From: Salinibaculum litoreum
Lineage (GTDB): Archaea; Halobacteriota; Halobacteria; Halobacteriales; Haloarculaceae
Reading direction: 5' to 3'
Length of the DNA stretch: 64,000 nt
Assembly: GCA_009789175.1 (NCBI GenBank)
Contig: CP046866.1
Location: 930,001 to 994,000, forward strand
The first letter of the stretch is position 1. Every line of letters begins with the position of its first letter. The position numbers were made by a program, and so were the translations under genes. The notes beneath the pieces were generated by a model. It had not been told where the DNA came from, made no database searches, and was given only the letters and a program-made list of their open reading frames with translations. Below, one piece after another: positions 5,194-64,000 of the stretch.

Positions 5194-5278
5194 GCAGGGA
5201 TAGCCAAGTCTGGCCAACGGCGCAGCGTTCAGGGCGCTGTCCCGTAGGGGTCCGCAGGTTCAAATCCTGCTCCCTGCA
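5194..5278 (+). tRNA. tRNA-Leu (anticodon CAG)
   Basis: An 85-base class II tRNA. Acceptor GCAGGGA (5194-5200) pairs with TCCCTGC (5271-5277), discriminator A. The anticodon stem CAGCG/CGCTG encloses TTCAGGG, anticodon CAG for the CUG codon. The variable arm is long and the T arm is CAGG-TTCAAAT-CCTG. No intron, CCA not encoded. It lies 21 bases before rpl18e, repeating the tRNA-then-ribosomal-gene arrangement seen at rpsM. Confidence 0.97.
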
Positions 5279-5299
5279 CTTTTTCACAGGAGGTAGGTC

Positions 5300-22945: not shown

Positions 22946-23099
22946 CTGGTGATTCCGAGGCGTCCCACCGTCTCGAAACTATCGCCTCAGTCGCCTGGCA
23001 CGGTCCTGTCCCCAGTGGGCGTCAGACCGTCGTCTGACGCATCTCTAAGTGGTGATAGAGCGTACGCTCGCACTATCACAGCGTGTGACGGGAGTACAC

Positions 23100-23336
23100 A
23101 TGGGAGTCCACAATAGCGCACACCTCGGTCAGCGACTGGCCGAAAAGCGGCGGGACGCATCGATGTCGACCGACCGGCAGTGTGGCTTTTGCGGTGGGAG
23201 CATCTCCAAGGCAGACGCAAACGAGCGCGTCGAGCACGTCTTGCCTGCCGACGGCGGACGGGATACGCGCACGGAACTGTACTGTAGTCCCGGCTGTTTC
23301 GTCCAGCAGATGGAGCGCGTGGCCCACTTCGACTGA
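23100..23336 (+). CDS. small zinc-finger protein (DUF7576-like)
   Basis: 78 residues if begun at 23100; a second ATG at 23163 (MSTDRQCGFCGG) would give 57 residues. CGFCGGSI and, 35 residues later, YCSPGCFVQQM make a C-x2-C / C-x3-C site of the kind in haloarchaeal DUF7576/TRASH-like proteins. Likely binds one zinc ion; role unknown. It is followed by the hairpin-rich gap upstream of dinB. Confidence 0.7.
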   Translation: MGVHNSAHLGQRLAEKRRDASMSTDRQCGFCGGSISKADANERVEHVLPADGGRDTRTELYCSPGCFVQQMERVAHFD

Positions 23337-23370
23337 ATTCTCCGTTTCCTGGGCAGCCGTTACCGGCAGG

Positions 23371-23533
23371 GAAACAATTAAGTGCGATAGACATTAACAT
23401 ACACATGAAGCCCTGGTGAGCGGGGCTTCCGGCGGGAACGACCGCCGAATCGTTCCGGTCAATTGGCACCGCAGTCCAGGAAACGCGCCCGGTGTCGACC
23501 CGGCCGGCGACACCGCGGCATTCTTGCGGTTTT
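23371..23533 (+). ncRNA. candidate structured RNA or leader upstream of dinB
   Basis: A TATA-like AACAATTAAGT (23371-23381) would start transcription near 23400. Stems: GAAGCCC (23407-23413) / GGGCTTC (23423-23429); CGGCGG (23430-23435) / CCGCCG (23442-23447), which competes with GGAACGA (23435-23441) / TCGTTCC (23450-23456); CGGTGTCG (23490-23497) / CGACACCG (23508-23515); and CCGC (23513-23516) / GCGG (23526-23529) followed by TTTT. A five-codon frame encoding MKPW (23405-23419) sits in the first stem. It may be a small RNA or a regulatory leader of dinB; unassigned. Confidence 0.45.
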
Positions 23534-23587
23534 CGACATCTCTCAGCGACGGCACCGCTTAAGCCGCGCCGGTTCCTGCTATCGCGT

Positions 23588-24826
23588 ATGCCCCGGGACG
23601 GGACGTTGCCCGGCGTCAGCGACGATGCCGAGCGTGTCGTCTGTCACGTCGATATGGACTGTTTCTATGCCGCCTGCGAGCGGTTGCGCGAGCCCGCACT
23701 GCGAGGTGAGCCGCTGGTCGTCGGGATGGGCTACGAGCCCGGCGAGTCCCACGGCGCGGTGGCGACGGCCAGCTACGAGGCCCGCGAGTTTGGCGTCGAG
23801 TCCGCCGAGGCCATCTCGGAGGCCCTGAAAGTCCTGCCCCGGAAGGTGGAGGCAGCAAAAGACCCCGACCTCGACGTGACCGAAGCCGGCTTCTATCGGC
23901 CGGTCGACCTCGACTACTACGAGTCCGTCGCCGCCGAGGTAAAGGAGATTCTCCACAGTGAGGCCGACACCGTCCGCGAGGTAAGCATCGACGAGGCCTA
24001 TCTGGATGTGACAGACCGCCTCTCCTGGGACAGTGACCTTCGAACCTTCGGCCAGCGGCTCAGAACGCGCATCGACGAGGAGGTCGGTGTCACCGCAAGC
24101 GTCGGCATCGCTCCCTCGATGAGTGCCGCGAAAATCGCCAGCGACCACGACAAACCCGATGGGCTGGTCGTGGTCGAACCCGACGACGTGCGGGAATTCA
24201 TGGCCCCACTGGCTGTCGAGGAGGTCCACGGTGTCGGTCCGGTGACCGCAAGCGAGTTCCGGGAGATGGGCATCGAGACGGCCGGAGACCTCGCGGGCGC
24301 AGATCCAACAGAACTTCGCGAGCGCTTCGGCGAGCGCGGTCTGGAGGTCCATCGCTACGCCCGCGGCGAGGACGACCGCCCCGTCGAACCGAAAGGCAAG
24401 CCCAAGAGTCTCAACCGCGAGTCAGCCTTTACCGAGGCGACGGCAGACGCCGAACAGAAACGCGAGCGGGTCACCGCGCTGGCAGCCGACGTGGCAGAGC
24501 GAGCAAGCCGGGAGGGCGCACTCTACCAGACCATCGGCATCAAGGTCGTGACCCCTCCCTTCGATGTCCATACTCGTGCGCGGTCGCTGCCCGGTCCCGT
24601 CGAGGACGCCGACCTCGTCGAGGAGGTGGCGCTCGACCTGCTGAAAGAGTTTGCCGACGAACGCGTCAGAAAGCTGGGCGTCCGGGTCTCGAAGTTGCAA
24701 TTTACCGATGGCCAGCAGGCCAGCCTCGATGGGTTCGACGAGACAGCCCCCACGACAACCGACGAGGACTCCGAGTCGACGCGGTCAGACTCCGACGGGC
24801 AGCAGTCACTCGGTGACTTTACGTGA
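23588..24826 (+). CDS. dinB: DNA polymerase IV (Y-family)
   Basis: 412 residues. Catalytic HVDMDCFYAACERLREP (metal Asp pair) and EVSIDEAYLDVT, then the SMSAAKIASDHDKPDGLVVV and GVGPVTASEFREMGIETAGDL HhH regions, and a little-finger domain from about 240. The tail ends QQSLGDFT, a consensus PCNA-interacting (PIP) motif. Translesion polymerase with low fidelity. I use the ATG at 23588; a frame from 23492 has 32 extra unconserved residues lying inside the hairpin region. Confidence 0.94.
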   Translation: MPRDGTLPGVSDDAERVVCHVDMDCFYAACERLREPALRGEPLVVGMGYEPGESHGAVATASYEAREFGVESAEAISEALKVLPRKVEAAKDPDLDVTEAGFYRPVDLDYYESVAAEVKEILHSEADTVREVSIDEAYLDVTDRLSWDSDLRTFGQRLRTRIDEEVGVTASVGIAPSMSAAKIASDHDKPDGLVVVEPDDVREFMAPLAVEEVHGVGPVTASEFREMGIETAGDLAGADPTELRERFGERGLEVHRYARGEDDRPVEPKGKPKSLNRESAFTEATADAEQKRERVTALAADVAERASREGALYQTIGIKVVTPPFDVHTRARSLPGPVEDADLVEEVALDLLKEFADERVRKLGVRVSKLQFTDGQQASLDGFDETAPTTTDEDSESTRSDSDGQQSLGDFT

Positions 24827-61877: not shown

Positions 61878-62984
61878 TCAAATGTGGAATTTGTAGATGT
61901 CTCTCCGGAATTGGTCCTCGATTTTCTCGTATCGGGTGTGGATGTATGAGTCGATAGCTTCCTGCGTGGCATTGAGCTCACCACCACTTTGGATGTCTCC
62001 CCGGAGGTACTTGAGAAGATCTCGCTGCCACTTCTTATCGATACGAAACCAAGTGGTGAATCGGTGACGCCCGTAATGAGAGCTCACACCTCTGTACTGT
62101 TCTGTCGGTCCGTACTCGGGTCTGAAGTACTTCTTCCAGATGTCGTTGATGTTCGTATGGTCCATCTTCTTCCCGCCAGACTTCGACAAGAACAACCAAG
62201 GACGACCGTTATCTGGTCTGCAAAGCAAGTACTGGAGAAGCACTCGACGAAGTTCATCGTCAAGCGGGAGAACTCGGGGGCGCTCTGACTTGTTTCGATC
62301 ACGATCGTGGGGGATGTAGACCGCGTTCGGACGCCCATTCAGAGTTGGGTGGTTTCCGAGATCAGAATAATGATCCTGAAGTTCCGAGTTGGTAATATGG
62401 ATTTCACTGAGCTTGATATTCGATACTTCTGATGCTCGAAGCCCCAGCTTGAGTTGGATGAGGATCACTGCCCGATCCCGGATATGTTTCACTTCGGTCT
62501 CGATGAACTCCCTCAGTTCAACAAGCGGGATCGGGTATTGGTCTTTGGGTGGTTCCCCACTAAGATCGATTTTGTTTTTCGCCGCTTTGAACGGATTGAA
62601 GTCTTTAGGATGGGGAAATGCAGGTTCGACCTGGAAATATTCGTACGCCTGATCCAGAGATGATAGCTTCGCTGCGACGGTAGCACCGTTGTTATCTTGC
62701 TCGTCTAAGTAGTACTCAGCGAAGGCAGTCACATGTGATGTTGATGGGACTGCTGGGTGGCGGTCGTACTCTCCCCAGATGAAGTTACACCACTGCGTAA
62801 TTCGTCGTTCAATGGCAACTATGGTCTCGTCAACATAGCCTTTCGAATAGACAACGTCGTCTAGCCAGAGTTGAAACGGGTCTGAGTCTACTGTCTGGAA
62901 CTGTTCATTGTACTTGGCAAGCGGATCAGTTGTGCGATTGAAAGCCTCTGCAATCTCTTCGTGCCTCTCTTTGCTGTCGCTCAT
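61878..62984 (-). CDS. tyrosine recombinase/integrase
   Basis: 368 residues. Catalytic Arg183 (LKLGLRASEVSN), His303-x2-Arg306 (SSHYGRHRFTTW), and the nucleophile Tyr in YIHTRYEKI (Tyr347 or Tyr352). An N-terminal core-binding helical domain spans about 30-130. Catalyses site-specific integration and excision. The ATG at 62984 (MSDSKERHEEIAEAF) overlaps the upstream stop by four bases; the longer frame to 63116 is the shadow of the upstream gene. Last gene of the three and closest to the junction. Confidence 0.92.
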   Translation of the reverse strand: MSDSKERHEEIAEAFNRTTDPLAKYNEQFQTVDSDPFQLWLDDVVYSKGYVDETIVAIERRITQWCNFIWGEYDRHPAVPSTSHVTAFAEYYLDEQDNNGATVAAKLSSLDQAYEYFQVEPAFPHPKDFNPFKAAKNKIDLSGEPPKDQYPIPLVELREFIETEVKHIRDRAVILIQLKLGLRASEVSNIKLSEIHITNSELQDHYSDLGNHPTLNGRPNAVYIPHDRDRNKSERPRVLPLDDELRRVLLQYLLCRPDNGRPWLFLSKSGGKKMDHTNINDIWKKYFRPEYGPTEQYRGVSSHYGRHRFTTWFRIDKKWQRDLLKYLRGDIQSGGELNATQEAIDSYIHTRYEKIEDQFRRDIYKFHI

Positions 62985-63523
62985 TCGTTTCTCTCTGAGT
63001 ATTCTGGTTTGTAATCTGTCTGCCAGTACCACAACCGTCTGGTTATACCACCGCTGTGAGCCGCCATCAGAACAGGATTGTAGACGTGCGGGTAGTCTAC
63101 GTGGTGCACTAACCACTCAAAGAATGTTTTGAGGGGGGACAGGTGCTGGTAGTAGACTGTATTATCTGATCGCTCCGTGACTTTGATTGAGTATCCACCG
63201 TCCTTGATATGCTGAAGATACGACTCAATGTCATCTGGATACGGGAGAGCGTGGTGACGCCCTACTTCCTCTCCCATGTATTTTTTAAAACGATCACCAC
63301 AGGGATACCACGAATTCTCCTTTGTTGACTCCGCAAGATCGCCGTGCTTCTCTAGGTATGCGTTCCACGTATCTTCTTCTTGGAACTGAGATTTGAACGT
63401 GTTTAATCTGTAACGTGTCGGGACTTCTTCTATTGATTTATATACCCCAAGCCAATACTCGACATCTCGTCTACCGGGTGCCTCGTCAGATCGATCTGGA
63501 ACGCTTATGTCTGCACGTGGCAT
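62981..63523 (-). CDS. recombinase-associated protein with core-binding-like fold
   Basis: 180 residues. YWLGVYKSIEEVPTRYRLNTFKSQFQEEDTWNAYLEKHGDLAEST, then LPYPDDIESYLQHIKDGGYSIKVTERSDNTVYYQHLSPLKTFFEWLVHH. The second half has the spacing of an N-terminal SAM-like core-binding domain of tyrosine recombinases, but there is no catalytic domain. It could be an accessory DNA-binding factor. It overlaps the neighbours at both ends (one base upstream and four downstream), so its expression is tied to the integrase. Confidence 0.72.
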   Translation of the reverse strand: MPRADISVPDRSDEAPGRRDVEYWLGVYKSIEEVPTRYRLNTFKSQFQEEDTWNAYLEKHGDLAESTKENSWYPCGDRFKKYMGEEVGRHHALPYPDDIESYLQHIKDGGYSIKVTERSDNTVYYQHLSPLKTFFEWLVHHVDYPHVYNPVLMAAHSGGITRRLWYWQTDYKPEYSERNE

Positions 63524-63963
63524 TACGATTTGCCACCCCGATTGGTTGGATAGTACCGGTCATCGTCGAAGAGAAGTTCTTCGCCTTCTAGATCGTCCAG
63601 ATGAGCGGTTACTCGCTCAGGAACAGTCCGCATTACATGTCTGATTATCTCATCATACGGAGCACCAGGATTTGCCTTAACAAATTCCTTAATGGTCTGT
63701 CTTTCCCCATTATAGACGGCATCTTCTAGATCCTGGATGCGCTCTCGGGAACGATCGAGCTCTTGTTTCAGTTCGTCTCGTTGCTGTCGAAGCTCACGGT
63801 TCGTTTCATCCGGATTGGTTGAGGCGTCAAACTTCTTCAAGCCTGCTTCAACCATCGCCTCGATAAATTCTGATGTAGACATCCCGAACTCGTTAGCTTT
63901 GGCTGACCACCGATCGTACTGCTGATGTGTCGGATATGTTGCAGCGTGTTTGCTCTCAGCCAT
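63523..63963 (-). CDS. small protein with N-terminal MetJ/RHH-like helix and coiled coil
   Basis: 146 residues. HQQYDRWSAKANEFGMSTSEFIEAMVEAGLKKFD resembles RHH/relaxase-accessory proteins. A heptad-rich coiled coil follows (TNRELRQQRDELKQELDRSRERIQDLEDAVY), then a winged-helix-like end (GAPYDEIIRHVMRTVPERVTAHLDDLEGEELLFDDDRYY). First gene of the three; its stop shares one base with the next start codon. Possibly sequence-specific DNA binding in recombination or its control. The promoter would lie beyond 63963, at the edge of the window. Confidence 0.7.
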   Translation of the reverse strand: MAESKHAATYPTHQQYDRWSAKANEFGMSTSEFIEAMVEAGLKKFDASTNPDETNRELRQQRDELKQELDRSRERIQDLEDAVYNGERQTIKEFVKANPGAPYDEIIRHVMRTVPERVTAHLDDLEGEELLFDDDRYYPTNRGGKS

Positions 63964-64000
63964 AATTCCTTGGAGGGTTTGATTCGTTGTGAGAAGCTAT

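Follow-up and report, generated by a model that had tools for sequence, protein, structure and literature searches.

A putative small RNA gene upstream of dinB in Salinibaculum litoreum and its relatives among the Haloarculaceae

Intergenic, trans-encoded small RNAs are known from haloarchaea, and sRNA132 of Haloferax volcanii offers the closest comparison to the locus considered here. In the accessible portions of its description, sRNA132 is 138 nt long, has its own BRE and TATA box and two stems joined by a linker, and is followed by a gene with a separate promoter (PMC6560208). We analyzed a window of 64,000 nt from Salinibaculum litoreum (CP046866.1, positions 930,001 to 994,000); coordinates below are those of this window, and its features lie on the + strand. 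The hairpins at 23407-23515 are best read from their sequence as an independent small RNA gene of about 120-127 nt with its own promoter, similar to sRNA132 in length and layout and likewise intergenic. Compared by description, the two differ in range: homologues of sRNA132 are reported in Haloferax only (PMC6560208, in the portions available), whereas the present family occurs in Haloarculaceae and in a few genera of another family.

A second point of comparison comes from a halite community, for which the available text describes 22 intergenic ncRNAs that are conserved in several Halobacteria and have no assigned function (PMC7002113). One structured example is from Halapricum salinum, whose genus also carries the present RNA; the Halapricum RNA named there is 281 nt long, a difference that rests on description rather than on sequence, and the present RNA may already have been detected among the halite-community RNAs. 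It was not found named in the accessible portions of the literature searched for a prior description, including PMC6560208, PMC7002113 and PMC5867862, and the family appears to be undescribed.

Archaeal C/D-box and H/ACA guide RNAs are also small, stable and equipped with hairpins. However, a C box (RTGATGA) with a D box (CTGA) occurred in 0/76 members, and no H/ACA features (a pocketed hairpin, a K-turn or an ACA box 3' of a stem) were noticed in alignments judged by eye only. A guide RNA directed at rRNA was rejected, as complementarity to the genome's own 16S and 23S rRNA was no longer than in shuffles and a 12-nt match of hairpin P2 proved to be same-strand identity. Over those 12 nt, P2 of the window is identical to the genome's own 23S rRNA immediately 5' of the sarcin-ricin loop; P2 of 11/76 members reaches 15 nt of identity there, a length attained by 1/760 shuffled RNAs. 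Mimicry of 23S rRNA by P2 was likewise discarded: the rRNA segment varies in 10 other plasmid-derived 23S stretches (GACAAGAACGACCG in Haloarcula, GACGGGAACGTTCG in Natrialba and others), and its 3' part, inspected by eye, pairs across the sarcin-ricin loop and forms no P2-like hairpin.

Promoter and predicted structure

The distance between TATA box and transcription start is well established in archaea, and it places the start of the RNA at about G23407 and a leaderless start of dinB at about 23588. The putative sRNA promoter, at 23370-23383, comprises a BRE (GGAAAC) and a TATA-like box (AATTAAGT) that align in 42 relatives as CGnAAGATTTAAGTGTG, with the TATA centre about 26 nt 5' of G23407. 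The predicted start base is a purine in all 42 aligned relatives (39 G, 3 A), and hairpin P1 opens with G23407. The interval from TATA box to start contains a conserved imperfect dyad (GTGCG ... TAACATAC, 23382-23402; consensus GTRTG-N8-TAACAYAC), whose conserved 3' arm is TAACATAC at 23395-23402. This dyad is a possible regulator site and suggests that transcription may be regulated. Its pattern is rare elsewhere: 5/29 relatives have a match, 3 of those 5 sites are the sRNA gene itself, and the gene's own dyad in the window is one base off the pattern. A regulon built around the pattern as an operator was dropped, there being too few other sites in the own genome and the relatives searched. 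The own genome contains a single exact instance of the promoter pattern (L208; C1:259346, - strand), which is unrelated to the sRNA gene and stands 5' of a small frame adjoining one that resembles, by eye, the metal-binding lipoprotein of an ABC transporter. In the window, a 95-aa frame at 23049-23333 has CGFCGG and CSPGC motifs, looks zinc-ribbon-like by eye and is without a Pfam match.

The stems P1, P2 and P3 and the TTTT at 23530-23533 are present in the sequence as an earlier note on this DNA had described them, and comparison with relatives separates those stems that are conserved from one that is not. P1 (23407-23413 with 23423-23429) lies at the predicted 5' end and is followed by P2 (23430-23435 with 23442-23447), which reads CGGCGG-GAACGA-CCGCCG and is the most conserved element. 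On alignment A3, 91.0% of cells are paired in P1, with both-side changes in 5/7 pairs, and 99.6% in P2, where 3/6 pairs show both-side changes and 3/6 are invariant. For P1 and P2 combined, 95.0% of cells are paired, versus 86.8 in shuffles and 31-52% in slid controls; 8/13 pairs show both-side changes, and the covariation score is 0.332 versus 0.171 in shuffles. The P2 loop follows the form GAANNA (GAACGA, GAACCA, GAATCA, GAACTA and GAAGTA were seen), and conservation of P2 exceeds what pairing requires.

The stem that would exclude P2 by pairing GGAACGA (23435-23441) with TCGTTCC (23450-23456), the alternating partner proposed earlier, can form in the window's own minimum free energy fold. 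Among the aligned relatives, however, 40.5% of its cells are paired; shuffles reach 39.7% and a slide by -1 gives 40.8%, so that the claim of conserved stems holds for P1 and P2 and fails for the alternating pair. The mini-frame MKPW (ATG AAG CCC TGG TGA, 23405-23419) does lie within P1 as noted; an ATG occupies its position in 14/42 aligned relatives, the frames there are unrelated, and MKPW followed by a stop is seen in the window only. Neither the start codon nor the frame expected of a peptide-coding, leaderless mini-gene is conserved across the 42 relatives, and the mini-frame is most simply explained as a product of chance.

P2 is followed by a linker (23448-23489) with a conserved AUUGGCAYCG, of which AUUGGC lies at 23462-23467. 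Most Haloarculaceae keep the linker motif; genus g10 and Halolamina, in which P1 and P2 remain, have lost it. Next comes P3 (23490-23497 with 23508-23515), a hairpin with apical CCGGCCGG at 23500-23507 that includes GGCC at 23502-23505. Its stem varies in sequence, length and register, and what recurs is a hairpin whose loop contains GGCC. On alignment A1, 55.3% of P3 cells are paired, a weak count because stem length and register differ among sequences; the stems of single sequences are long and changed in sequence, as with CGGTGTCG/CGACACCG in the window and CGGTGTAG/CTACACCG in L022.

RNAalifold proposed, unprompted, a pairing between the linker's UGGC and the loop of P3, which in the window corresponds to a candidate pseudoknot of UUGGC (23463-23467) with GCCGG (23503-23507). 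A UUGGC-like motif and a GGCC loop are both present in 53/77 sequences and both absent in 12/77; the remaining 12/77 are discordant, with 5 having the motif only and 7 the loop only (Fisher p 4.9e-6, uncorrected for relatedness). Both motifs are missing from genus g10. Halovenus-type copies (L007, L105, L106) account for 3 of the 5 rows that have the motif only, with GCUGGCCAGC printed for 2 of the 3. Since relatedness is uncorrected, this evidence for a pseudoknot is suggestive only; the GGCC loop of P3 may also act as a kissing dimer.

The predicted 3' end region (23519-23533) contains the T-runs ATTCTT (23520-23525) and TTTT (23530-23533), and a T-run is found at the matching region in 36/76 relatives versus 7.8 expected from shuffles. 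Folding is modestly better than in dinucleotide shuffles (z of -1.94 for 23408-23540 and -2.58 for 23407-23533, versus -0.84 for the opposite strand) and similarly modest across ten family members (-0.95 to -3.30). These modest z-scores speak for hairpins that arose by chance in GC-rich intergenic DNA, a reading that is hardly credible given their conservation across genera and the covariation of P1 and P2.

Distribution of the RNA family

At the DNA level, matches turned up in 19 of the 146 family genomes searched, with loci L016, L018, L019 and L021 chance-like on inspection, and further copies of the RNA were found among 80 dinB loci from named genomes. Alignment A1 and covariance model R1 were built from 26 sequences, and alignment A3 and model R2 from 42, after a motif filter had removed 6/48 of the loci tried. 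With R1, 76/391 genomes of the class matched at E <= 0.01, the weakest matches being coding-like or partial and left out of membership; with R2, 64/391 genomes drawn from the class matched. Within Haloarculaceae, R2 found 75/146 genomes in 14/22 genera (61/96 among good genomes), and the homologues in these 75 comprise promoter, P1, P2 and linker. The 71/146 Haloarculaceae genomes with no R2 match indicate that the sRNA gene falls outside the core gene set of this family.

Outside Haloarculaceae, R2 matched 7/7 genomes of Halolamina (g41), a genus of another family. A draw of 40 genomes around it gave strong matches in 8 (the 7 of Halolamina and 1 of genus g85), with two more at E 0.11 and 0.42. 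Among the 29 genomes behind the named loci, 10 matched, namely Salinibaculum, Halosimplex, Haloarculaceae H-GB1-1, Halorientalis, Halapricum (two), two Halovenus, the MAG QS_4_69_31 and Halolamina; the other 19 had no match at E <= 0.5, including Halorussus, Haladaptatus, Natronomonas, Halococcus, Halorubrum, Halobellus, Haloquadratum and a third Halovenus MAG. Judged by these matches, the RNA family is widespread among Haloarculaceae and has a patchy distribution outside them.

The own genome holds a single copy, with the next match at E 0.5, and the Haloarculaceae genomes that match have one match each, two excepted. In genome G021, identical copies of the RNA region (L012 and L020) lie near both ends of one contig, perhaps an unresolved overlap of a circular contig; in genome G052 (genus g7), two weak and differing matches (L163 and L171, 56.0 and 42.4 bits) are possibly diverged paralogues. 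A mobile element was rejected as carrier: no plasmid match was found, and an exact-pattern search did not find the P2 consensus in viral contigs.

No Rfam 15 family scored above its gathering threshold at 23340-23600; radC (17 of 40 bits) and tfoR (16.5 of 70 bits) were set aside as chance-level matches far under their gathering scores. Elsewhere in the window, the sense overlapping transcript RNA sot0042 (RF02656) matches at 1229-1399 with 116.6 bits, and ARAGORN places a tRNA-Leu (cag) at 5194-5279 that is absent from the Rfam tRNA model list at gathering score. The RNA described here probably merits an Rfam family. Supported by covariation, with a stereotyped promoter and a presence in at least 14 Haloarculaceae genera plus Halolamina, it is a tractable case for studying the function of a broadly conserved archaeal sRNA, in contrast to the well-studied sRNA132, reported only in Haloferax in the available portions of PMC6560208.

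dinB and possible roles of the RNA

The neighbour 3' of the RNA gene, and outside it, is dinB (23588-24826; DNA polymerase IV; Pfam IMS 4.8e-40, IMS_C 5e-22). Its own TATA box, CTTAAG at 23558-23563, lies about 27 nt 5' of the ATG at 23588, so that a leaderless dinB mRNA would exclude the RNA. A TATA-like box at the leaderless distance occurs at 6/13 dinB loci with the RNA, 29/66 without it and 35/1580 control positions (one of the 80 loci, with no ATG in range, was left out). Downstream dinB on the same strand is found at 59/78 RNA loci, a set that includes some genomes fetched twice; the spacing runs from about 26 nt to over 1 kb. In genomes of Halorientalis and Halosimplex, about 1-2 kb and other genes separate the two. 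Among 12 wider regions, dinB lies at 1.8-2.3 kb in 3 and at 7 kb in 1, a short dinB-like match occurs in 1, and there is no dinB nearby in 7; in Halolamina, the RNA is located away from dinB. Its other neighbours include an FAD-linked oxidase, a PIN-ATPase with an amino-acid kinase, aconitase with MFS, a MoxR-type ATPase, SDR with a lactamase-fold protein, and an amidotransferase with TIM. Because dinB has its own TATA box, genes intervene and some regions lack dinB, the RNA gene appears to be separate from dinB, yet the neighbourhood is old.

This arrangement bears directly on the suggestion that the hairpins are a dinB 5' leader, an attenuator or riboswitch in which P2 and the alternative stem take turns. 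Such a leader would fit the ability of the alternative stem to form here and the fact that, both in the window and in many relatives, dinB follows closely on the RNA and shares its strand. It is nonetheless very unlikely: the alternative stem is not conserved, neighbours vary, and the RNA does not sit in the 5' leader of a regulated gene in all members. The earlier note's other suggestion, an independent small RNA ending at 23533, is favoured, since the start predicted from the conserved promoter falls at P1 and the RNA recurs beside unrelated genes. That the adjacency may nevertheless reflect a functional tie, such as a damage-inducible sRNA kept beside dinB since both serve the same response, would suit a promoter with a conserved dyad and a linkage that lasts over many genera while upstream neighbours change, and a link to DNA damage is directly testable. 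As an explanation of the adjacency it seems improbable, as the RNA is carried unlinked to dinB in 7/12 wider regions and no promoter motif common to the two was seen.

We therefore prefer, with a probability of roughly 0.8, to regard 23370-23533 as a stand-alone, trans-acting sRNA gene of a haloarchaeal RNA family absent from Rfam 15. That it is an independent ncRNA gene at all is very probable: a promoter at the right distance from P1, covariation of P1 and P2, enrichment of T-runs and varied neighbours argue for it, whereas the presence of a T-run in only 36/76 relatives, the modest folding scores, the weak pair count of P3, the 71/146 family genomes with no match and the frequency of dinB adjacency argue against it. 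According to this proposal, TBP and TFB would initiate at about G23407, the transcript would open with hairpin P1, guarding its 5' end, and transcription would stop at the U-run near 23533, yielding an RNA of about 127 nt that would work in trans and not on dinB in cis. A protein would dock at the nearly invariant P2 with its GAANNA loop, contact of UUGGC with the GCC of the P3 loop would fold P3 and the AUUGGC linker together, and the resulting RNP would regulate or serve a target.

Our best guess at the function follows from the location of conservation, which sits in P2 and the promoter more than in the linker and fits a structured RNA bound by protein better than an sRNA that pairs through a seed; protein docking at P2 has about an even chance of being the main activity. 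Pairing with mRNAs through a single-stranded AUUGGCAYCG, released or masked by contact with the P3 GGCC loop, is a more doubtful candidate for that activity. It would accord with conservation of the linker in most Haloarculaceae, with co-occurrence of GGCC and UUGGC, and with the trans-encoded haloarchaeal sRNAs with regulons known from the available text of PMC6560208; however, genus g10 and Halolamina have lost the linker and kept P1 and P2, the most conserved part is P2, and no target was found. A bolder and rather unlikely version of the protein-bound reading would make this a new class of stable archaeal RNP RNA, single-copy and pseudoknotted, with a dedicated protein docked at the P2 GAANNA loop and a dedicated regulator, standing beside a translesion polymerase gene through a role in a haloarchaeal stress or mutagenesis response. 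Far from the RNA gene, at 62001-64000, G+C drops from about 0.63 to 0.48-0.50, and the end of the window is perhaps part of an island.
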